Shown: positions 48,120 through 60,473 of the stretch, one piece after another
Numbering within the stretch: the stretch's first letter is position 1
How the letters are laid out: each line of letters begins with the position of its first letter
Origin: Chloroflexi bacterium 44-23
GTDB lineage: Bacteria > Chloroflexota > Anaerolineae > Anaerolineales > Anaerolineaceae
Length of the DNA: 64,000 nucleotides
NCBI GenBank assembly: GCA_001899005.1
Contig: MKUW01000007.1
Coordinates: 1 to 64,000, forward strand
Direction of reading: 5' to 3'
Notes under the pieces: generated by a model
Told to the model about the DNA's origin: nothing
Database searches by the model: none
Seen by the model: only the letters and a program-made list of their open reading frames with translations
Program-made: the position numbers and the translations under genes

Positions 48120-48935
48120 ATGGCTCTTAAAGGAAATCTTCGCGATTTCTCGATTACGCAATTATTAAATCTCGTTAATTTGGCTTGCAAAACCGGCACC
48201 CTCGTTATAGAAGGACCAGGTGATGTTGCTCAAATTTCATTTCGCGAAGGTAAATTGGCTTATGCACAATTGGGCCATCACGATAATACACTTGCCGGAA
48301 TTCTTCGCAGAAATCGCAAGATCAGTGCCCGTCAATACGCCATCCTCCAGGAACGTGCTCAAAATATGGGTGATAAAGAATTGGGCCTTTTGTTGATTAA
48401 CGCTGGCTACCTCACTCAAACTGACATTATTGACAGTTTGCAGCAGTATTTTATTGCGATTGTGCGTCAATTGTTCACATGGGTGGAGGGCTTTTTTCAT
48501 TTTGATACGAACAAATTTTCACCCTCCGATAAGATACCGATTAGGATGGATTTGGAGAATCTGATTATCGAAGGTTCGCGTCAATTGCGTGAATGGGAAC
48601 AACTCCAGCAGGAAATTCCCAGCCTGGATATGTCACTTAAGTTTATGGATCGCCCCGGCACGAACATTCGGAATGTTAATTTGAGTGTGGAAGAATGGCG
48701 CGTGGTTTCTTATGTCAATCCAAAAAACACGATGCGCCAAATAGCACAAACAACCAAGCTAAATGAACTCGAGATTCGGCGGGTAGTCTACGCACTTTTG
48801 CAGGCTGGTTTGGTTGAAATTATCCGGCCGGGAAATGCTCCGGTGGCCATCCAACCTAGAGCCTTCCCCACTACCGACAAAAAAGAACAAAAATCATTGG
48901 TAAACAGGATTATTGATCGGATCCGTGCGATCTAA
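48120..48935 (+). CDS. DUF4388 domain protein (PatA-like N-terminus)
   Basis: A 271-residue protein. Residues 1-~135 are DUF4388: LKGNLRDFSITQLLNLVNL, TGTLVIEGPG and ISFREGKLAYAQ. Residues ~60-125 also contain a segment like those of type II/IV secretion GspE N-termini (ELGLLLINAGYLTQTDI). Residues ~170-250 look like a winged helix. DUF4388 proteins occur with Ras-like GTPases and receiver proteins in gliding and chemosensory-type clusters. It heads the operon and probably links the signal to an output; mechanism unknown. Confidence 0.85.
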   Translation: MALKGNLRDFSITQLLNLVNLACKTGTLVIEGPGDVAQISFREGKLAYAQLGHHDNTLAGILRRNRKISARQYAILQERAQNMGDKELGLLLINAGYLTQTDIIDSLQQYFIAIVRQLFTWVEGFFHFDTNKFSPSDKIPIRMDLENLIIEGSRQLREWEQLQQEIPSLDMSLKFMDRPGTNIRNVNLSVEEWRVVSYVNPKNTMRQIAQTTKLNELEIRRVVYALLQAGLVEIIRPGNAPVAIQPRAFPTTDKKEQKSLVNRIIDRIRAI

Positions 48936-48955
48936 TAAGACGTAGAGGAATTAGT

Positions 48956-49498
48956 ATGCAAACTGTCAAAATCGTAGTCACAGGCCCATTCAGTGCAGGC
49001 AAAACAGAATTTATCCGGTCTGTGAGTGAAATTGACGTAGTCTCTACCGAACGAAAAATTAGCGCAGAAGCTGAGAAAATTAAAGAATCTACCACAGTTG
49101 CAATGGATTTCGGGCGAATTACCGTTGATGCTGAATTGGTTCTTTATTTGTTCGGTACTCCGGGTCAGCGACGTTTTGATTTCATGTGGGAGATTCTTTC
49201 CGAAGGAATGCTCGGTTTTATTGTGATGGTTGACAGTGTCCGACCGGAGACCTTCCGGGAAGCGCGCAGTATTCTGGAGACATTTCGGGCTTATGCACCG
49301 ACCCCGTATGTGGTTGCAGCCAATAAACAGGATCTCGAAGATGCCTGGGATTTGGATGATATGCGCGTAGCATTACGCCTGGACCCGAATGTAAAGTTCT
49401 TACCTTGTGTTGCGCATGATAAAGAGTCGGTAAAAAAAGTTTTATTAGAACTGCTCTATACGATTTTGGCTGAAATGGAGTCGGGTAATAAAGCTTAA
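48956..49498 (+). CDS. small Ras-like GTPase (COG2229 type)
   Basis: A 180-residue GTPase: P-loop GPFSAGKT (10-17), FGTPGQ (67-71) in place of the usual D-x-x-G switch II, typical of this prokaryotic group, and NKQD (123-126) for guanine specificity. Relatives work with DUF4388 or Roadblock proteins, as here. The switch I Thr is not obvious, so effector contacts may differ. AGAGGA precedes the start; the hydrolase gene begins at the next base after its stop, implying tight coupling. Confidence 0.92.
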   Translation: MQTVKIVVTGPFSAGKTEFIRSVSEIDVVSTERKISAEAEKIKESTTVAMDFGRITVDAELVLYLFGTPGQRRFDFMWEILSEGMLGFIVMVDSVRPETFREARSILETFRAYAPTPYVVAANKQDLEDAWDLDDMRVALRLDPNVKFLPCVAHDKESVKKVLLELLYTILAEMESGNKA

Positions 49499-50284
49499 AT
49501 GTCATCAATAACGACAGATAAGGGAATATTACACTACGAAGTCCTCGGTCGTGGTGATCCGGTGATTTTCTTGCATGGATGGCTGGGTTCTTGGGCTTTA
49601 TGGAAAGACGTAATGACTTCAATTGCCAGTCGTCACCGTGCATATGCACTTGATTTTTGGGGTTTTGGTGAATCAGGCAGAAAACGAGATTCATATCAAA
49701 TGGAAGATTTTGTTGATCTCATTTATCAATTTATGGATCAGCTCGGAATTGAATCAGCCCCGTTGATTGGCCATAGCATGGGGGGAACGGTCAGCTTGTT
49801 GACTGGTTTGCGCCACCCGGATAGCGTATCAAAAATCATTGTTGTTGGATCGCCGATTAAAGGGTCTTCATTGGCATTGCCGCTGAAACTGGCAGGTGAA
49901 AAAAGGATTGCATCCTTTTTATATTCAAATATAAATATTTTTCGGTTTTTTATGAAACTGTATGCCCCAATCATTTGTAAAGATGCTCGATTTCCCGGAT
50001 TGATTGATCAGGATATTATGAACTCAACAGTTGATTCCTTTTTGAAGAGCATCGCTGATTTGAGGCATACTGATTTAACCATCGAAATGCAGACGATTCA
50101 GATGCCCATTCTGGGTCTTTATGGAACAAAAGACAATATTGTAGCTGCTACTGAGTGGAAGACATTAAAAAATAGTGCACCTCATGCTAAAATACAATTG
50201 TTTCCGCGGTCTGGACATTTCGTAATGTTAGACCAGCCACAACGCTGCACCGAATCAATTCTGGAATTTTTACAGAAAGAGTAA
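49499..50284 (+). CDS. alpha/beta hydrolase with intact catalytic triad
   Basis: A 261-residue protein. HGWLGSW forms the oxyanion region, GHSMG (91-95) the nucleophile elbow with Ser93, Asp212 (GTKDN) and His240 (RSGHF) complete the triad. A lid region spans ~130-185. Substrate unknown; the family includes esterases, lipases and C-C hydrolases. It is closely similar to the protein at 59447, where the Ser is replaced by Gly. It immediately follows the GTPase gene. Confidence 0.9.
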   Translation: MSSITTDKGILHYEVLGRGDPVIFLHGWLGSWALWKDVMTSIASRHRAYALDFWGFGESGRKRDSYQMEDFVDLIYQFMDQLGIESAPLIGHSMGGTVSLLTGLRHPDSVSKIIVVGSPIKGSSLALPLKLAGEKRIASFLYSNINIFRFFMKLYAPIICKDARFPGLIDQDIMNSTVDSFLKSIADLRHTDLTIEMQTIQMPILGLYGTKDNIVAATEWKTLKNSAPHAKIQLFPRSGHFVMLDQPQRCTESILEFLQKE

Positions 50285-50285
50285 A

Positions 50286-50906
50286 ATGCAAACAATGATG
50301 AAATCACTTTCTCCAATCGGTTTTTCCAAAAACATGCTCACAATTTTATCCTCAGCTGCAGATGAAGTTCTTGGTCATCTTCGTACGAATTCAAGCAAAA
50401 AAGATTGGCAACCCAAAGAAAATGAAGATATATGTGGTGATACAAATCTTGTGCTTGAATCATTTCAAGATAGTAAGCGCTTGGAGGAAAAATACGGAAA
50501 ACTTGGCTCACTAGGTCTGGCGACCAGGATAGGTGAAGCCAGCTTTCGTTGTTTTGTGCGTCAGGAGGGGGAGGATTATCAACTAACTGATATGAATTAT
50601 CGCCTGATGAGCCTGAATCAGCGTTTTTTGTTCGGTTTGGAAAAAGTAGCTGAATTTGTAAATTTGAATTTAAAATGGCAAATCGACGTCTTTGATAATC
50701 TTGAGGAATGGGTCTGGCAAATCTCACACCATCCAGATAGCTGGCAATGGAATCAGGTTTGGGCTTTTTATTTTTCCGGTTTATTAAGAGAATACTTATC
50801 ATGGACTTCTGGTGGAAGGTACTTCGTATTATCACCTCAGTTAATTGATAATAACAGTGAGATTGTCCATCAGATTAGAATATCCAAGACTCCATTGGGA
50901 AATTAA
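50286..50906 (+). CDS. unknown protein, V4R-like hydrocarbon-binding candidate
   Basis: A 206-residue soluble protein. The segment KYGKLGSLGLATRIGEASFRC and later SLNQRFLFGLEKVAEFVN recall small-molecule (V4R/hydrocarbon) binding domains found beside GTPase and Roadblock genes, but I am not certain and no cysteine pair typical of V4R is present. Gene order (two bases after the hydrolase stop) says it belongs to the same operon. It may be a ligand sensor of the cluster. Confidence 0.5.
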   Translation: MQTMMKSLSPIGFSKNMLTILSSAADEVLGHLRTNSSKKDWQPKENEDICGDTNLVLESFQDSKRLEEKYGKLGSLGLATRIGEASFRCFVRQEGEDYQLTDMNYRLMSLNQRFLFGLEKVAEFVNLNLKWQIDVFDNLEEWVWQISHHPDSWQWNQVWAFYFSGLLREYLSWTSGGRYFVLSPQLIDNNSEIVHQIRISKTPLGN

Positions 50907-50907
50907 A

Positions 50908-52191
50908 GTGACCATCCTGAAAGTAATTTTGCCATCAAGTCGTCAGATTATTCCATTTAATGAACCGGCTCGTGACTTGCGGCTGCAAAACAAACCATTG
51001 TGGTTGATTCAACGTGATGTGCTTTCAAAATATACGCACTCTGAACTACAACTGGCGATTGATCAGCCTCTGCCAAAAACAAATGAGGCTTGTGTGGTTT
51101 ACCGTGACAATCTTTATTTTGATGATGCATTTATGAGCTATTTCCTGAATGCAGCTCAAAAAGGCGGCAAGGCAGTCCAGGCGGCTTTGAAACTTTCTGA
51201 TCAAGCCTTTCGAGAACATTGCTTACCTCTTTCAGATTCTTACCAGCAGATAGGAGATACATACTTACTGGAGCTTTGGTATTATCCTGAAGGACCCTCA
51301 GAGAATGCGGATCCTTTGATAATGGATCTGCAATCACAAGAAATTGGTTATTATCATGTACCAACTTATATGGCAACCAATGCCGGTGATCTGGTTTATT
51401 ACGTTCCTTTACGATCAATTATTGCAATAGATTCCTGGGTGCATGTCTTTATTGCTGATTGCGTTTTTGGAGTCTTTGGAAGAGGTGCTCGTTTTGAAGA
51501 TGAACTCAAGACAAACCCATTTTTCAAATTAAAAATATTAATAACTTCCATGTTAGAGGGTAAACAATTATTGCAATGTTCCAGGTTGGTACGAAAGGGT
51601 CAAAATTGCACCATCGATCCCTCGGCTGTGATCAATGGGCCGGTTACCATCGGTGACAATGTTACGATTGGGGCTGGGGTGATTATTGAAAATTGTATCA
51701 TTGGCAACAACGTGAACATTTCGCAGGGTTGTAATTTAATGCTGTCTGTGATTGGTGACGGTACTTTTTTGCCTTTTCGTGCTTCACTTTTTATGACAAC
51801 AGTAATGGATAATAGCATGGTGGCGCAAAATACCTGCCTGCAGATGTCTGTCATTGGACGAAATAGTTTTGTAGGTGCCGGTACGACTTTCACTGATTTT
51901 AATCTGTTGCCGCAGAAATTGCGTGCCCGTAATGCCAGTGGCGATTTGGCGAATTCCAACCGGCCAGTATTGGGAGGTTGTGTTGGTCACAACTGCCGTA
52001 TTGGTGCGGGGATGATCATTTTTCCCGCCAGAACAATCGAATCGGATGTAGTCCTGGTCAGTTCAAATGAAAGAAGAGTGATTGATCATGATGTCCATTT
52101 TGAAGATAGCGATCATCATTCTTTCGTCACCGGGGTATTGCATAAAAGGCTTTATCCAAGAGACCTTAACACCAAACCTGAAACCTGGTAG
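50908..52191 (+). CDS. NTP-transferase-like protein with left-handed beta-helix (sugar nucleotidyltransferase-like)
   Basis: A 427-residue protein beginning at GTG 50908, one base after the previous stop. Residues ~1-170 resemble the NTP_transf_4/GlmU-like N-terminal domain, although the usual G-x-G-T-R loop is not visible. Residues ~225-390 carry hexapeptide repeats (IDPSAVINGPVTIGDNVTIG, VIIENCIIGNNVN and so on) of the left-handed beta-helix. The C-terminus has RVIDHDVHF. Function may be in sugar activation, acyl transfer or simply scaffolding. An unusual guest in a signalling operon. Confidence 0.75.
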   Translation: MTILKVILPSSRQIIPFNEPARDLRLQNKPLWLIQRDVLSKYTHSELQLAIDQPLPKTNEACVVYRDNLYFDDAFMSYFLNAAQKGGKAVQAALKLSDQAFREHCLPLSDSYQQIGDTYLLELWYYPEGPSENADPLIMDLQSQEIGYYHVPTYMATNAGDLVYYVPLRSIIAIDSWVHVFIADCVFGVFGRGARFEDELKTNPFFKLKILITSMLEGKQLLQCSRLVRKGQNCTIDPSAVINGPVTIGDNVTIGAGVIIENCIIGNNVNISQGCNLMLSVIGDGTFLPFRASLFMTTVMDNSMVAQNTCLQMSVIGRNSFVGAGTTFTDFNLLPQKLRARNASGDLANSNRPVLGGCVGHNCRIGAGMIIFPARTIESDVVLVSSNERRVIDHDVHFEDSDHHSFVTGVLHKRLYPRDLNTKPETW

Positions 52192-52373
52192 ACCACCTAT
52201 AAAACATGAAGAATCCTTTGGATCACACTTTGTCTCGCAATCCGCCAACTATCCCCGGGTGATTTCAAAGGTATAATTAATGTGTAATTAAATAATCTGT
52301 AATCTTTCATTTCTTGAAGAACATTCTTGGTTTAAATGACCTGCTATTAAATTATTTGCATAAGGGAGGTTTT

Positions 52374-53270
52374 ATGGGTAAAGCTCGCATTTTGGTGGTA
52401 GAAGATGATCTCGATATCTCGAATATGTTGAATATTTACTTTAAATCTCAGGGATATGATGTTGACCTTGCTTTGCGGGGTGAAACTGCCCTTGAAAAAA
52501 CAAGACAGACATTGCCGCACTTGATCGTTTTGGATATTATGCTGCCAGACATCGATGGGTATGAGGTTTGCCGTCGCTTGCGATCCAATACAAGGACAAG
52601 CCATATTCCGGTAATATTCCTGACGCAAAAGGATGAACGCAGTGATAAATTACAAGGGCTCGAATTGGGTGCCGATGACTATATTACCAAACCATTTGAT
52701 ATTGAAGAATTACGTTTGCGGGTTCAAAACGCAATTGCACGTGCTGAGCGCGAGAGCCTGACAGATGCACAATCCGGCCTGCCATCAGGAAAATTAATTG
52801 AAGATCAAATGCGCAAGGTAATGCGCGATAAATCCTGGGCATTAATGGACATTCAAATAAAAAATTTTGAACCATTTAAAGAGGTGTATGGCTTTATTGC
52901 AGCCAGTGACGTCTTACGGTTTACAGCAATGTTAATGGGAGAAACGCTGGATGAAATGGGTAATGAAACCGATTTTGTCGGTCACGCAGGTGGAAATAAT
53001 TTTGTGATAATTTGCCACCATAATAGCGCGGCGAGAATTGCCGAATCTCTGCGGAAAAAATTCCAGGAGTCAATTCAGACGCATTACACTTTTATGGACC
53101 GTCAGCAAGGTTATTTCACCTCATTAGATGTCAATGGCAATTCTCAACAATATCCGTTCATGGCTTTGGCAATTGGGATAGTATCACCGAAAACCCATCA
53201 GTTTTCTGATATCAGGGAAATAACAGAGCTGGCTGCGGAAGCCCGTCGAACTGATCTTCTTGCAAATTAA
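52374..53270 (+). CDS. response regulator with degenerate GGDEF output
   Basis: A 298-residue protein. Receiver domain 1-~120: acidic pair EDD, phosphoacceptor Asp54, Thr84 and Lys106. The second domain (~125-298) has the GGDEF-domain framework (SLTDAQSGLPS, FKEVYGF) but the signature reads GGNNF at 206-210, so both acidic catalytic positions are lost; diguanylate cyclase activity is unlikely and it may bind GTP or act by dimerisation. AAGGGAGG precedes ATG 52374. The preceding 180 bases have an isolated TATAAT at 52272-52277 without a clear -35. Confidence 0.88.
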   Translation: MGKARILVVEDDLDISNMLNIYFKSQGYDVDLALRGETALEKTRQTLPHLIVLDIMLPDIDGYEVCRRLRSNTRTSHIPVIFLTQKDERSDKLQGLELGADDYITKPFDIEELRLRVQNAIARAERESLTDAQSGLPSGKLIEDQMRKVMRDKSWALMDIQIKNFEPFKEVYGFIAASDVLRFTAMLMGETLDEMGNETDFVGHAGGNNFVIICHHNSAARIAESLRKKFQESIQTHYTFMDRQQGYFTSLDVNGNSQQYPFMALAIGIVSPKTHQFSDIREITELAAEARRTDLLAN

Positions 53271-53285: not shown

Positions 53286-56200
53286 ATGAATTTAAGTACA
53301 GATATGCTTTTTGGGATCTTTCTCATTGTATTAGGGGTGGTCCTCTGGTTATCTGTTCGTTTTATGCTAAAAAGCCTGTTTAGTGAAAGGCAAACAAAAA
53401 TAACAGGGTTCAGCGACCTTGTCAACAAAGCAAACGATAATTTATCTGAAGCAATTATCCAGTTATTGCCAGGTGGAAAAATCCTTTCAATTAATCGTAA
53501 TGCATATTCAATCTTTGGGGTTGAGGAAGATCCGCCAGTCACACTTAACTCTCTGGCAAAAAATGTTGAACCCGAATCACTTTTTTACCAGGTTTGTTCT
53601 CAGCCAGATACAGTTGAATTATCAATTCAGGCTAAAAATTATCAGGCGATGAGTTACATGCTTCCAGAGCGGACATTATTGTTTATACGCCCAATCGGCA
53701 ATCAGATAGAACGCCAGGAAACACAAAGAAACACAGTTACTTCAGAATTATCGGCAGGATTGAGTCATGCTTTGACAATCAGTCTTGACCCTGAGCTATT
53801 AGTCTTAAATGTCTTGACTCAAATGAAAGAATTTATTTTGGCAGATCAGGTCGAAATCAACTTATTAAATGATGAAGCAACTCATTTGATTCCTTTTCGT
53901 ATTCAAACCGGAAAGAATGGTGAAAAACCATTTCGCGCAGAATCGAAGGAAAAAATTGGAGAGGGTTTCTCTGGCAAGATTATCCAATCTTCAGAAGCAG
54001 TTTGGGTACGGGATTTGAGGGAGTACGAATCTACCCTTCATGAAATAGAAGAACAAACCTCTGATTTTAAATCTTTTATGGGTTTTCCTTTGATCGTTGA
54101 TCATGAGGTTCTTGGTACTCTTGAGTTTTACAGTAATCGCTTGGACGGATTCAAAGACAACCAAAGAGAAAGCGTTGAAAAAGTACTTCCCCAAATAACC
54201 GCAGCGCTAAATAATGCAATCCTTTATAGGGTGGAAAAGCACAAAGCAGAAGAATTAAAGTCTCTGGCTCATTTGGCACAATCAGCCAGTTATTCACGTG
54301 ACCCTTACGATATTTTTGAACGTATGTTAAACACAATTTCACCTTTGATTTCAGTCGAAATAATCGGTTTCTTATTGTTTGATGAATCAAAACTGATGTT
54401 GGAAGCACAAAGACCATTCGTTGGATTACCAGGTCCATTTGTCGAGATTTTTAAGACGACGATTATTCAAGGCAGTCAGGCTGAGAAAATAATCCGTTCG
54501 CATGATGTACTCCTCACAGAAAATGCTGAAATGGATTTTCATTGGATCACATTAGGGTTGGATCATATTGCCAGAGCTGCCAGTATTAGGGAATCAGTGC
54601 TGATACCGCTCATTTCGGGTGGAGAAATTTTTGGATTCTTGATGGCTGGCAACCATAAGGCAAAACCGGCAGCATTCAGTCAGATGGAAATGCGATTGTT
54701 ATTGATTGTCGCAAATCAGGCAGCCCCATTGATCGAGAACATGCTCTTGATTCAACAATTAAATCGGAAAGCACGCTTGGCGGAAGTGTTGCGAAAAATT
54801 GCTGTTTTTGCCAACTCAGGAACAAGCTTGGAACAGATTTTCAGTTATTCGCTCGAACAACTGGCAGAATTGTTCAATGCCGATTGCTCAGCCCTTTTTC
54901 TTTTGGAAAATAATGCAAGCCAATTAGCACTTCAAAACGGTTCGCTGTTTGGATGCGTTGGTGAATCTGCTTTCGATAGTATCCTTCCAATCCAGGATGA
55001 TCAATATCCGTTTACAACGACCAATTCCCTGAAATCAATTGTGATTGGGCGTTTTGATGAATCTGAACCCATCGTTCCTTTTTACCAGAAACTTGTGGAT
55101 AAGTGGCATCTGTTATCTGCGATGATTGTTCCTCTCATAATCGAGGATGAAGGAATTGGTGAGCTTTGGGTTGGCTCAGGAAAGGCAAACCTCTTTGATT
55201 TCGGTGATATTCCTTCCCTCCTACCGGTAGCACAACTACTGTCTGAAGTGATCGAACAATCAAAACATGGTGACCAGAGTCAGGTGCAGTGGAAGAAGAA
55301 GGTTGAGAGGCTTACTGTGGCGGCAAGAGTCAACCGGGAGATTCTGAATTCACAGGATATAAATACGATCCTGCAGATTATCGCGCAGGAAGAAATGCAT
55401 ATTGTAAATGCTCATGCATTTTCCTGGGTAATTATTAAACAGGATAACAGTAACAATAAATCATTAATGATCCTGATTGAAAAAGGTGAAAAACTAACCA
55501 GCGAAATACGAGGATCACTTGCGACGTTGATAGCGCAAGGTAAGAGAGTTTTCGGTCAAGATGAAGATTTACTAATTGGCGAGAACCGCGCTACTATTTT
55601 CTATCCATTCGAATTGGGAAATTCATATTTTGGTGGTTTGTTTCTTTATACCAACCAAAAAAAAGGCTTTACACAAGCCGATCTGGACAGTGTTCAATCT
55701 TTTATCAGCCAGGTCCATCAAGCGTTAATCACCACTTTCAATGCCTGGGAGCAACAAAACACATTGGAATTTATGAAAAGTAAAATGGACCTCCAGAAAC
55801 GGCTGTTTTCAATCTCACAGAGGCATGGGAGCGAGTTAGCCATCCAATCAGTGTTGGATCCGATTGTGGCCGAATTAATGGGATTTTTCACTTTCCGGGA
55901 AGTCAGTATTTATAAATTTTCAAGAGATGACCATGGGTATAAGCAGCTTTATTGCCATACGGCTGATGACATGAATGAGATCGCAACCAATTCAGACTTG
56001 ATTGATTGGCAAACGGTTGAATTGCTTAAGAAACCACAGTACCGTCGTGAGAATTTCTATCAATATCAATCATCAGAGCTACCTGATATTTTCTCTCGCA
56101 GATGTAGTGAGGAAGAAAATAAACCACTCGATTTGCTTTTCAACCCAATTGCTGATTTTGATACAAACCCAGCGGGTTTGGTGTGCCTAGGCGTTGATCA

Positions 56201-59072
56201 TGGTGTCCAAATTACAGATTCGACACTCGAGTTATTGCAGGTTTTCATCGATCAGATAGGTCTGATTTTGGAAAATGATGCCAGCTATCAGGTTTTTGAT
56301 TTTGAAACCAATGAGGATTTCGAGAAAGAAAAAGTGACCGATGCCACTTTGGAAACGATCCAACCTGTTGAGAGCCTTATGGAGAGTAGCAGGTTTCAGC
56401 AACTTTTTGGAGACTCGTTATTTGAAGATCTTCTAAGAATGGAAGATACCAAACTCTTCTTTTCTAATTTTATAAAGGCGATTATTACAAAAACTGAATT
56501 TGATCGGGTGATTTTATTTATTGAAAACCCGGATGGTTCGGTCTGTGTCCAAGAATCAAGCTCCGCAGAAATTGACCCAAATCGGCTGAACGCATTGCTT
56601 GGTCAAAGAAATCCAATTCAAGCAGTTCTGAACAATTGGGCTCCCCAAACGTATCCATCGCATGAAATAGAGGGCGATTGGAAACGGGATCCATTTTTCC
56701 ATGAACTGATGGCGGATGATTATTTATTCCTTCCCTGGCAAATTTCCTCAAAAAAAAGAGCAGTGTTGCTGATGATGCGGAACGGCAAGATATCTCCATT
56801 ATCTGAAAAACAAATTGCTTCTTTCCTCGAAAAACTGAAATTGATTGGTTTTTTGTTGGATTATCGTACTGAAAAAGAACAACAGTCCATTCAACTTAAT
56901 GAAATAAATGACTTAAATCAGTTTGAACAGTTAACTAACTCCTTGAATCCTGAGGAAATCCTTGGGCAGCTACTACAAACATCATTTGAGCAAGTGCCAG
57001 TTGCGCAAGCGGGTTGGGTTGGGATTTGGCTTGAGTCAGACCAAGCATTAAAACCAGTTTTGGCAAAAGGCTATCGTAATAGTGCTGCTTTGTTAAGAAT
57101 CCGGTTTACGAGCGCGGTTTGGGCAATACCTTCCATAGTGATGGAAAAACGTGAGGTATTACAAATTAATGATCTTAACTTCGCAGCAAATTATCCGCTG
57201 CTGCCAGAAGATCTGGTCCATTATCAAACAGCGACCGGTGGCCCTCTTCCGATTGGCAATTTGATAGCCCCGCTCTATTTTAAAGATCGAAATCTGGGTA
57301 TTTTGGTTCTGGAGAATTTTGACGGCAGCAGTAAATTCTCAAATAAAGACACCGGCAAGGTTGCAGCCATGGCACAACAAACATCGAAGACTTTGCACAA
57401 TGCTTACCTTTATCGCGACTCCTTGTTAATTTCAGAAAATTTGGAAAATCAACGCGATCAGCTGCTCCTCCGTTTGAGCATAATTGCAGCTACTGCCGGT
57501 GAAAAAGATTTGGAAACAAACATAACAACAGCTCTGGACCAGATGAGTGATGCTATTCACGCAGAAATGGCTATGTTATTTAATTCAGACACAAAAAAGT
57601 TGTACCAATGCGCTCGGGATACGAACAATAAGAATGCTGAAGCGACTTCACTTTCGCTTGAGTTGCTGCAAAGTATTGGTGAATCATTAATCGGGAACGA
57701 TGAAACGCTGATCCTGGACGAAATTTACAAGAATGAAAAGTGGCTTGAGAAGATCAGCTCAGATTTCCCTTACTTAAGTCTTATTTCAATTCCGTTGCAA
57801 TACTCTGGAGAAAACCTTGCGGTTCTTTTGTTCGCTCACTCAGAACCATTTCACTTCTCGAAAAGTGACCAGCAATTGCTCGAATCGATTGCGCCACAGT
57901 TAAGTCAGTTAATAGTTCAGACTAATTTAAAAGACCAGTTGAGGCAACAACAGAATCGTTTGGCTGAAGCTGAAGTAGAAAAAATTGATATATCCAGTCG
58001 CTCGCTCGCAGTACTTGAAGCGCTTAAAGATGGGGTAATAATTTGTAACCCAAGCAACGAGATCACATTCAGCAACCATGTAGTCGAGAAAATTCTTGAT
58101 CTGCCATATGCATCCATTCAGAACTTATCAATTGAGGAGCTGGCCGAAAAATCAAAAGGCAGTCTGGACAAATGGAAAAATAGCATTTTCCAATGGGCAA
58201 ATAATGCCGCTTTTTTGAATGTCGGGCAGCAATACTCTGAAAGAATTCATCTGGCAAGCCAGCGAATTATCGCAGTGCAAGCATCACCGGTTTTATGGAA
58301 CTCCCAATATCTGGGAGCTGTGACCATGTTACGTGATATGACAGTCGAGGCTCAGGTGGACCGAATAAAAACTGAATTTATTGCAAATGTCAGTCATGAA
58401 CTGCGCACACCATTAACGTCAATAAAAGGGTATATAGATATTATGTTAATGGGGGCAGCAGGAGAAATCTCCGATCAACAAAAACGTTTTCTGACTGTTA
58501 TAAAGAATAATTCTGCGCGTTTGAATGTGCTGGTGGATGATTTGCTGGATGTCGCGAATATTGAAAATGATAGAATCCGCTTTGATTTGCGTGCCGTTTA
58601 TCTGGATAAAATCCTTTCCCAATTAATTAAAGATTATCAATCTCGGTCAGAGCAAGAAAATAAAACCCTAAAATTTGATGTCAAAATTCCCAAGAATCTG
58701 AGACCGGTTCGTGCGGACGCACAACGTGTTAAACAAATCCTTTCCATATTATTGAAAAATAGCTATCAATATTCACAATCTGGTGGCAAAGTGATTGTTC
58801 GCGTCAGCCAAAGCACATCTGAGACACAAATTGATATTCAAGATTTTGGGATTGGCATTAAAAAAGAATATCAAGATCATATTTTTGAACGCTTCTTTCG
58901 TGGTGAAGATGAGCTTGTTCTAGCTACATCTGGAACAGGATTGGGATTAGCGGTTGCAAAATCGTTGGTTGAGATGCAAGGGGGTCAGATCTGGTTCTAT
59001 AGCTCAGGAATTAAGAATGAAGGCTCTCTGTTTTCTTTTACGATTCCGATTTACATGCAGGAGAATGGTTAA
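53286..59072 (+). CDS. giant membrane-anchored multi-GAF/PAS hybrid-input histidine kinase
   Basis: A 1928-residue sensor kinase. One N-terminal membrane helix (~8-31), a short PAS-like segment (~45-110), then about eight GAF-like modules starting near residues 158, 320, 495, 671, 836, 1048, 1210 and 1386, a PAS domain from ~1576, HisKA with phospho-His ~1704 in VSHELRTPL, and HATPase with LLKNSYQYS (N box ~1824), DFGIGI (G1), ERFFRG (F) and GTGLGLAVAKS (~1883, G2). Catalytic motifs look complete. It probably integrates several ligands or redox signals and phosphorylates the receivers at 52374 and 59073 on either side. The number of GAF repeats is by eye, so it may be off by one or two. Confidence 0.9.
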   Translation: MNLSTDMLFGIFLIVLGVVLWLSVRFMLKSLFSERQTKITGFSDLVNKANDNLSEAIIQLLPGGKILSINRNAYSIFGVEEDPPVTLNSLAKNVEPESLFYQVCSQPDTVELSIQAKNYQAMSYMLPERTLLFIRPIGNQIERQETQRNTVTSELSAGLSHALTISLDPELLVLNVLTQMKEFILADQVEINLLNDEATHLIPFRIQTGKNGEKPFRAESKEKIGEGFSGKIIQSSEAVWVRDLREYESTLHEIEEQTSDFKSFMGFPLIVDHEVLGTLEFYSNRLDGFKDNQRESVEKVLPQITAALNNAILYRVEKHKAEELKSLAHLAQSASYSRDPYDIFERMLNTISPLISVEIIGFLLFDESKLMLEAQRPFVGLPGPFVEIFKTTIIQGSQAEKIIRSHDVLLTENAEMDFHWITLGLDHIARAASIRESVLIPLISGGEIFGFLMAGNHKAKPAAFSQMEMRLLLIVANQAAPLIENMLLIQQLNRKARLAEVLRKIAVFANSGTSLEQIFSYSLEQLAELFNADCSALFLLENNASQLALQNGSLFGCVGESAFDSILPIQDDQYPFTTTNSLKSIVIGRFDESEPIVPFYQKLVDKWHLLSAMIVPLIIEDEGIGELWVGSGKANLFDFGDIPSLLPVAQLLSEVIEQSKHGDQSQVQWKKKVERLTVAARVNREILNSQDINTILQIIAQEEMHIVNAHAFSWVIIKQDNSNNKSLMILIEKGEKLTSEIRGSLATLIAQGKRVFGQDEDLLIGENRATIFYPFELGNSYFGGLFLYTNQKKGFTQADLDSVQSFISQVHQALITTFNAWEQQNTLEFMKSKMDLQKRLFSISQRHGSELAIQSVLDPIVAELMGFFTFREVSIYKFSRDDHGYKQLYCHTADDMNEIATNSDLIDWQTVELLKKPQYRRENFYQYQSSELPDIFSRRCSEEENKPLDLLFNPIADFDTNPAGLVCLGVDHGVQITDSTLELLQVFIDQIGLILENDASYQVFDFETNEDFEKEKVTDATLETIQPVESLMESSRFQQLFGDSLFEDLLRMEDTKLFFSNFIKAIITKTEFDRVILFIENPDGSVCVQESSSAEIDPNRLNALLGQRNPIQAVLNNWAPQTYPSHEIEGDWKRDPFFHELMADDYLFLPWQISSKKRAVLLMMRNGKISPLSEKQIASFLEKLKLIGFLLDYRTEKEQQSIQLNEINDLNQFEQLTNSLNPEEILGQLLQTSFEQVPVAQAGWVGIWLESDQALKPVLAKGYRNSAALLRIRFTSAVWAIPSIVMEKREVLQINDLNFAANYPLLPEDLVHYQTATGGPLPIGNLIAPLYFKDRNLGILVLENFDGSSKFSNKDTGKVAAMAQQTSKTLHNAYLYRDSLLISENLENQRDQLLLRLSIIAATAGEKDLETNITTALDQMSDAIHAEMAMLFNSDTKKLYQCARDTNNKNAEATSLSLELLQSIGESLIGNDETLILDEIYKNEKWLEKISSDFPYLSLISIPLQYSGENLAVLLFAHSEPFHFSKSDQQLLESIAPQLSQLIVQTNLKDQLRQQQNRLAEAEVEKIDISSRSLAVLEALKDGVIICNPSNEITFSNHVVEKILDLPYASIQNLSIEELAEKSKGSLDKWKNSIFQWANNAAFLNVGQQYSERIHLASQRIIAVQASPVLWNSQYLGAVTMLRDMTVEAQVDRIKTEFIANVSHELRTPLTSIKGYIDIMLMGAAGEISDQQKRFLTVIKNNSARLNVLVDDLLDVANIENDRIRFDLRAVYLDKILSQLIKDYQSRSEQENKTLKFDVKIPKNLRPVRADAQRVKQILSILLKNSYQYSQSGGKVIVRVSQSTSETQIDIQDFGIGIKKEYQDHIFERFFRGEDELVLATSGTGLGLAVAKSLVEMQGGQIWFYSSGIKNEGSLFSFTIPIYMQENG

Positions 59073-59450
59073 ATGGCGAATATCTTTATTGTTGAAGATG
59101 AAAAAGATATTCGTGAGTTGGTTGCCTTTACTTTGCGTTATGGCGGGCATTCTGTTAAGCAGTTTGCCAATGGTGAGGAAGTTTTTACCGCATTAGCAGA
59201 TGAAATCCCGGATCTGTTTATTCTGGACGTGCGAATGCCGGGTGTATCCGGATACGAACTTTGTGAGAGCATTAAGCAAAATGTAAAAACCGCCTCAATC
59301 CCTGTCATTTTTCTTTCGGCGAAAGGGCAAAGTGAAGAAATTTCGAGAGGTTTTGATGCTGGCGCGATCGATTATATTTTAAAGCCATTCATTCCAGAAC
59401 AACTGAATAACAAAGTTAATCAAATTCTATCTATTGATGAGCAATCATGA
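59073..59450 (+). CDS. single-domain response regulator receiver
   Basis: A 125-residue CheY-like receiver: EDE at 8-10, phosphoacceptor Asp52, Ser82 and Lys104 (ILKPF). No output domain. It starts directly after the kinase stop, so it is the likely phospho-partner; the next gene overlaps its end by four bases. Confidence 0.93.
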   Translation: MANIFIVEDEKDIRELVAFTLRYGGHSVKQFANGEEVFTALADEIPDLFILDVRMPGVSGYELCESIKQNVKTASIPVIFLSAKGQSEEISRGFDAGAIDYILKPFIPEQLNNKVNQILSIDEQS

Positions 59451-60232
59451 GCGCAATTCTGCTGGAGAATGATCTTCTTCACTATGAAGTTTTAGGCCGG
59501 GGAAAACCAGTTTTTTTCCTGCACGGTTGGTTTGGATCCTGGCGGTATTGGATTCCGGCCATGCAGGCGGTTTCGCTCGATTATCGCGCTTATGCTTTTG
59601 ATCTGTGGGGTTTTGGTGACTCTGCCAAAAACCAGAAATATTCATTGGCAGAGCAGGCCCAAATGATTTTTGATTTTATGGATAAAATGGGAATTTTTCG
59701 TGCAGCTTTGATCGGACATGGGTTAGGCGCTCTGGTTGCATTTGAGGTTGCCAAGCACTGGCCGGAATTGGTGGACCGCATTATGGCGATTGCTTGCCCT
59801 ACTCGTGAAAGTCAACTGGAAGAGAATGCATTAGAAAAAGGTGATCAAATATCACAGAAGTTGGTTAAAGATGGTTTGGAAACAAATGAAAACTTGTTAG
59901 CAGACGCAAAAAAGAACGATCTTGCAGCAGCTCTTATTACGTTCTCTCACGAAACATTTATCGAATCAGCCCAAAGTTTTGAGATCCCGGTAACAGAGAG
60001 CCTTTTTGTTTATGGTCGCCAAGATCCCTTTGTCAAGTGTCCAAAAGCAGAAGATTTTGAAAACCTCACAGATCGACAGCATCTTCTTGTTTTTGAGCAA
60101 TCGGGACATTTTCCTTTTTTGGAAGAAAGCAGTAAGTTTAATCGTTTATTGGGTGAATTTCTAACACTCACACCAGGTACAGAGTTGCGCGACTTGCAAC
60201 TTAAGGAAGAATGGAAGCGACGCATTCGTTAA
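59447..60232 (+). CDS. alpha/beta hydrolase paralogue lacking the nucleophile serine
   Basis: A 261-residue protein, the same length as and similar throughout to the one at 49499 (LHYEVLGRG, FLHGWFGSW, WGFGDS). The nucleophile elbow reads GHGLG (90-94): codon GGG gives Gly92 where Ser is required. Asp193 and His221 remain. Ordinary serine hydrolase chemistry should be lost; it may be a ligand receptor, as in plant alpha/beta-fold receptors with changed triads, or use another residue. It ends the signalling cluster. Confidence 0.9.
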   Translation: MSAILLENDLLHYEVLGRGKPVFFLHGWFGSWRYWIPAMQAVSLDYRAYAFDLWGFGDSAKNQKYSLAEQAQMIFDFMDKMGIFRAALIGHGLGALVAFEVAKHWPELVDRIMAIACPTRESQLEENALEKGDQISQKLVKDGLETNENLLADAKKNDLAAALITFSHETFIESAQSFEIPVTESLFVYGRQDPFVKCPKAEDFENLTDRQHLLVFEQSGHFPFLEESSKFNRLLGEFLTLTPGTELRDLQLKEEWKRRIR

Positions 60233-60279
60233 TCAACGGGTGCTGTTTTCTATTTTTCACAGGGCAAAAATACACCGAA

Positions 60280-60308
60280 TTGACAATTCCACGGCCGTCA
60301 TCTATACT
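60280..60308 (+). promoter_or_regulatory. strong promoter of the thiamine operon
   Basis: TTGACA at 60280-60285 and TATACT at 60303-60308 with a 17-base spacer: a full -35 match and near-full -10 match. RNA would start near 60315, just before the riboswitch. Confidence 0.9.
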
Positions 60309-60324
60309 AACCTGGAACACAGAT

Positions 60325-60427
60325 AAGGCACCGGGGAGCTCGAAGGCAATATGCTTGAGCTGAGAGGAGAACAAAGCGTTCTCGACCCTTATACCTGATC
60401 CGGATAATGCCGGCGGAGGGAATTGCT
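60325..60427 (+). promoter_or_regulatory. TPP riboswitch (thi box)
   Basis: The conserved core is present in order: CCGGGGAGCTC, GAGCTGAGAGG, GACCCTTATACCTGATC, GGATAATGCCGGCGGAGGG. Thiamine pyrophosphate binding should fold the aptamer and allow the terminator at 60438 to form. It controls the thiamine genes that follow. Confidence 0.97.
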
Positions 60428-60437
60428 TGCAGAATAC

Positions 60438-60473
60438 AACAGCCATTCTCTCTAAAATGAATGGCTGTTTTTG
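60438..60473 (+). terminator. riboswitch-controlled rho-independent terminator
   Basis: AACAGCCATTC and GAATGGCTGTT form an 11-bp stem with a 10-base loop, followed by TTTTTGT. It lies between the aptamer and the Shine-Dalgarno (GAGGAAG) of the 60486 gene, so control is transcriptional. Confidence 0.92.

Follow-up and report, generated by a model that had tools for sequence, protein, structure and literature searches.

The window, a 64,000-nucleotide stretch at the start of a contig of Chloroflexi bacterium 44-23, carries two paralogous genes for α/β-hydrolase-fold proteins of 261 residues each, here called B (upstream) and A (downstream), with the genes of a histidine kinase cassette between them. 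The features of this region are the following.

48120..48935, forward strand: DUF4388 protein
48956..49498, forward strand: small Ras/MglA-like GTPase, directly upstream of B in 39 of 47 loci
49499..50284, forward strand: B, paralogous hydrolase of 261 residues with an intact Ser93-Asp212-His240 triad (GHSMG)
50286..50906, forward strand: 206-residue protein, its position between B and the next gene conserved
50845..52191, forward strand: left-handed β-helix (LbH, hexapeptide) protein, a conserved cassette member found also in the other class that carries orthologues of A, which we take to be Chloroflexia
52314..53270, forward strand: response regulator with a degenerate GGDEF domain (GGNNF), the true start likely being a downstream ATG
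53286..59072, forward strand: multi-GAF/PAS sensor histidine kinase of 1928 residues
59073..59450, forward strand: stand-alone receiver domain, overlapping A by 4 nt
59447..60232, forward strand: A, α/β-hydrolase-fold protein (PF00561) of 261 residues without the nucleophile serine
59720..59722, forward strand: Gly92 of A (codon GGG), in the nucleophile elbow GHGLG (residues 90-94)
60023..60025, forward strand: Asp193 of A (GAT), catalytic-acid position, conserved in 128 of 132 orthologues
60107..60109, forward strand: His221 of A (CAT), catalytic-base position, conserved in 131 of 132 orthologues
60194..60229, forward strand: basic C-terminal tail of A (LQLKEEWKRRIR), A-specific and conserved, with low pLDDT in the models
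60222..60243, forward strand: terminator-like stem-loop followed by a T-rich tail at the end of A, a pattern match that does not exceed the shuffled mean

Membership of A in the superfamily is secure, as its score against the PF00561 (Abhydrolase_1) profile is 76.8 bits, compared with a curated cut-off of 25.8. The NCBIfam search with A returned no model above cut-off, and the Ndr profile gave no match at E 0.001. Ten PF00561 hydrolases were identified in this genome; nine have the G-x-S-x-G motif and A alone lacks the serine. The original prediction described A as a pseudo-hydrolase in which serine had given way to glycine (GHGLG, codon GGG) while Asp and His were kept, and named as its counterpart the paralogue at 49499, likewise of 261 residues and with GHSMG. 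The open reading frame 59447-60232 and that of B confirm both descriptions. A thus departs from serine hydrolases at the elbow, where 119 of 132 orthologue rows also lack serine, and agrees with them in having an acid after β7 (Asp193) and a histidine after β8 (His221). The pseudo-hydrolase reading is supported, and the same pattern is found across the orthologues.

The AlphaFold model of A from the window is of moderate quality (pLDDT 77.7, pTM 0.83), while that of the Thermanaerothrix orthologue is confident (pLDDT 93.2, pTM 0.92). Both have the canonical order of strands and helices, with Asp193 and His221 placed after β7 and β8, respectively. In the Thermanaerothrix model, the fold is canonical, the elbow lies at residues 91-93 and the cap is short and helical. 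Residues ~251-261 of this model are conserved and yet of low confidence and unpacked, which suggests that the C-terminal tail of A may be a docking segment. The best structural matches of A are tied at Z 27.7-28.9. They include the lactonase AidH as well as the S102G mutant in complex with C6-HSL (Z 27.7-28.1, tied with the others). RsbQ was not among the structural matches listed, which is evidence neither for nor against a relationship.

The original prediction asked whether glycine is fixed in the orthologues and held that serine in them would mean a recent loss or a sequencing error. Glycine is not fixed. Across 132 readable rows, residue 92 is Gly in 92, Ala in 17, Ser in 13, Thr in 5, Asp in 4 and Asn in 1; in a second collection (79 distinct rows), Gly occurs in 68, Asp in 6, Asn in 3 and Ser in 2. 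Serine is therefore present in a minority, and a recent loss is not supported. The other two triad positions hardly vary: Asp193 is Asp in 128 of the 132 rows and Asn in 4, and both Asp193 and His221 are kept in 79/79 distinct rows of the second collection. In B, the triad Ser, Asp and His is invariant (47/47 rows).

On the tree, A and B form separate groups (SH-aLRT 89). Residue 92 of A changed at least 21 times, a count that is only approximate because the tree method was a 'quick' one and some branches are long, that of A from the window (0.92) among them. By comparison, His221 changed once, Asp193 three times, and His26, Trp28, His91 and Gly94 not at all. The tree leaves it ambiguous whether residue 92 was Ser or Gly at the root of the A group. 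In the window's own genus, two members with Ser92 (codon AGC) and one with Asn92 are nested within a Gly clade, and the serine of these two is apparently a regain. The branch of A from the window is unusually long in relation to its relatives of the same genus, and that of B from the same genome is also longer (0.47). Three orthologues (L050, L079 and L080) combine Asp92 with Asn193, possibly a swap, while other Asp92 orthologues keep Asp193; the sole orthologue in which His221 is replaced, by Tyr, is L156:10031-10828, where Ser92 is still present.

The pattern of conservation indicates that A can fulfil its conserved role without the serine hydroxyl but not without Asp, His and the oxyanion loop. 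It follows that selection across the family cannot be for a covalent serine-hydrolase mechanism. To judge from the alignment, simple decay does not describe the protein either, the oxyanion loop, His and Asp being among its most constrained sites.

Full-length orthologues of A occur throughout the window's family and order, and further in its class and in another class of the phylum, so that A represents an old family of orthologues shared by Anaerolineae and Chloroflexia. The best 80 loci of the second collection include those of the isolates Thermanaerothrix daxensis, Anaerolinea thermolimosa, Levilinea saccharolytica and Longilinea arvoryzae. A viral or mobile origin was considered and rejected, as a search of viral contigs found no relatives of A.

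The gene neighborhood of A is far more constant than its residue 92. In 130/130 loci with readable upstream sequence (one further locus stops at a contig edge and was left outside this count), A lies directly 3' of a receiver/response regulator or kinase gene: a stand-alone receiver in 120, a receiver that scored closest to the response regulator-GGDEF protein in 3 and the kinase itself in 7. This adjacency holds for every state of residue 92 (Ser, Gly, Ala, Thr, Asp and Asn), and complete genomes of Chloroflexia keep the order LbH protein, response regulator, multi-GAF kinase, (receiver), A, the open frames of the kinase there reaching 3,487 residues. Given this constant position behind a sensor kinase or response regulator gene, A is probably a signaling component rather than an ordinary enzyme. 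In 121 rows, the phospho-acceptor and Lys motifs of the stand-alone receiver are retained. The response regulator at 52314-53270 has GGNNF in place of the GG[DE]EF signature of an active diguanylate cyclase; the signature is absent in 35 rows, all 35 of which retain the receiver Asp, and is missing also in three genomes of the other class. By these motifs, the response regulator is a conserved pseudo-diguanylate cyclase and the second degenerate enzyme of the cassette.

The relationship between A and B is less tight. The original prediction viewed the two as a catalytic/non-catalytic pair. In favor of this, B is also present in most genomes that have A, and the two proteins share 30 conserved positions with identical residues, including the HxW..SW..W motif at the pocket mouth, DxxGFG, the Asp and the His, which would be compatible with a common ligand class. 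A pair is thus possible, but A and B are far apart in Chloroflexia, and it is the kinase or response regulator that adjoins A in every readable locus; this adjacency, together with the separate setting of B, identifies the kinase cassette and not B as the constant partner of A. The nucleophile Ser and several cap residues are conserved in B and not in A. Conversely, R33, Y34, R233, L234 and, in the tail, K253, W256, R258 and R259 are conserved in A and not in B, and these A-specific residues are candidates for contact with the kinase. Around B, the DUF4388 protein and the small Ras/MglA-like GTPase (48120-49498) form a pair that precedes the gene, and a PATAN-MglA gene association has been described (PMC4316618). 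The 206-residue protein encoded at 50286-50906 has no Pfam or NCBIfam match.

Downstream of A, at 60280-60439, a promoter-like match (TTGACA-17-TATACT, 11/12) is followed by a TPP riboswitch (RF00059), beyond which lie genes for a thiamin pyrophosphokinase and for thiamine-transport-like proteins. Because the stem-loop, the promoter match and the riboswitch separate them, co-transcription of A with the thiamine genes is unlikely, and A probably closes a transcription unit of its own, although scans for such patterns carry little weight as evidence.

On balance, we are inclined, with some reserve, to regard A as a non-hydrolytic sensory or adaptor subunit that binds a ligand within a phylum-specific signaling cassette. 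The cassette would comprise the LbH protein, the response regulator with its pseudo-GGDEF domain, the multi-GAF histidine kinase, the receiver domain and A, the last having presumably descended from a serine hydrolase ancestor common to B. The pocket of A may still bind a small carbonyl-type ligand without cleaving it, the ligand being held through the oxyanion loop (backbone of His26/Trp28/Leu93) and His221. Binding would then shift the helical cap, and either the cap or the C-terminal tail would touch the kinase or the receiver and alter phosphorylation. B, whose triad is complete, may produce or remove a ligand of this kind, or respond to it.

Several known proteins render such a ligand-receptor role plausible. 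AidH S102G is inactive, and its 1.33 Å crystal structure nevertheless holds the substrate (PMC3532132). It shares with A the fold (Z ~28) and the same Ser-to-Gly change, although it is an engineered mutant of an AHL lactonase, not a natural protein, and is ~20% identical to A. The mutant shows that a hydrolase can become a binder through a Ser-to-Gly exchange, without implying that A binds AHLs. RsbQ-like hydrolases are paired with PAS proteins, including PAS-histidine kinases (PMC3183031), and the RsbQ/RsbP system resembles A in that an α/β-hydrolase-fold gene adjoins a PAS-containing signaling gene. However, RsbQ needs its intact Ser-Asp-His triad for signaling (PMC3183031), whereas A has Gly92; the RsbQ gene lies immediately upstream of its N-terminal-PAS partner, whereas A lies immediately downstream of the receiver or kinase; and the kinase of A is a multi-GAF protein, usually with a separate receiver in between. 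The strigolactone receptor D14 signals without a need for hydrolysis (PMC6331613), as is proposed here for A, but it is a plant protein with a full triad and an F-box partner. In addition, the S97A and H247A variants of D14 lose the ligand-induced Tm shift (PMC6331613). The loss of response in S97A indicates that removal of the serine does not always preserve binding, which calls for caution with the binder model. The kind of protein would then be a known one, namely a hydrolase-fold sensory partner of a signaling protein, and what appears new in A is the lack of a nucleophile in a family spread over much of the phylum. A search of the open-access literature found no described serine-less bacterial hydrolase coupled to a kinase.

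The main rival to the binder or adaptor reading, possible though we give it limited weight, is that A is an enzyme that works without the serine. Its His221-Asp193 dyad would serve as general base for a substrate bound in the oxyanion hole, in the manner of HOD and AqdC, and the kinase would read the product or its absence. These cofactor-free dioxygenases dispense with the nucleophile, which is naturally Ser or Ala, and keep His-Asp (PMC10548524), much as A does. A pure binder would have little evident need for Asp193, whose conservation thus fits serine-independent catalysis as well. The position of the acid differs, however: in HOD it is Asp126, 25 residues after Ser101, while in A it follows β7, and no conserved Asp was found in the A alignment when one was sought ~25 residues after the nucleophile position. 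Moreover, residue 92 of A varies also to Gly, Thr, Asp and Asn, unlike in the HOD type. HOD and AqdC have known substrates and no signaling context, and the invariant kinase coupling of A does not in itself require an enzyme.

It is distinctly less probable that A is a ligand-free scaffold or adaptor for the kinase or receiver and that folding alone accounts for the retention of Asp193, His221 and the oxyanion residues. The A-specific conservation of the tail and of R33, Y34, R233, K253, W256, R258 and R259 would suit such a function. Nucleophile-less hydrolase folds with regulatory roles are known in ABHD5/CGI-58 (PMC8850477) and the NDRG proteins. In the latter, which are non-enzymatic, all three triad residues have been replaced (PMC7022630), so the hydrolase fold does not need Asp and His; A retains both and has no Ndr match. 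ABHD5, a lipase co-activator regulated by ligands, has Asn at the nucleophile position, and both it and NDRG are eukaryotic and without a histidine kinase partner. A mere scaffold is also hard to reconcile with the pocket side of A, whose residues belong to the most constrained ones.

That A is still a hydrolase, using water, Asp92 or another residue as the nucleophile or retaining activity in the Ser-bearing members, seems very improbable. Four rows have Asp92, and Asp nucleophiles are known in haloalkane dehalogenases and epoxide hydrolases. The thirteen Ser92 orthologues have an intact triad in nearly all cases, and some of them may therefore hydrolyze. Most rows, however, have Gly or Ala, which offer no side-chain chemistry, and S102G abolished the activity of AidH (PMC3532132). 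A recent loss of function, a pseudogene, a frameshift or a sequencing error in the window can practically be dismissed despite the long terminal branch, since the frame is open, the tail is conserved and orthologues in the family, the order, the class and another class likewise lack the serine.

In a bolder form of the preferred ligand-binding reading, a two-component system found throughout the phylum would combine a giant GAF kinase, A as the sensory subunit on which this kinase depends, and a pseudo-diguanylate cyclase. Active B would work on the same ligand, and the two hydrolase-fold proteins would be 'reader' and 'eraser' in a bacterial pair resembling hormone receptors. In this full extent, the proposal is rather unlikely. 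Hydrolase-fold receptors such as D14 and RsbQ have left open whether signaling needs catalysis, and the A family amounts to an evolutionary test of this point run many times over, in which residue 92 changed repeatedly while the kinase partnership and the remaining active site were kept. The natural series of Gly, Ala, Ser, Thr, Asp and Asn allows binding to be separated from turnover. The cassette is a conserved and apparently uncharacterized signaling system of Chloroflexota with cultured members in Thermanaerothrix, Anaerolinea, Levilinea and Longilinea.

One contig of Levilinea saccharolytica holds two copies of the A region (L191 and L193) ~35 kb apart, on opposite strands and with equal scores, which represent either a real duplication or an assembly artefact. 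Elsewhere, the kinase partners of A appear as large open frames, of 3,487 residues at L265:1891-12351 (reverse strand) and of 2,797 residues at L264:2655-11045 (forward strand).
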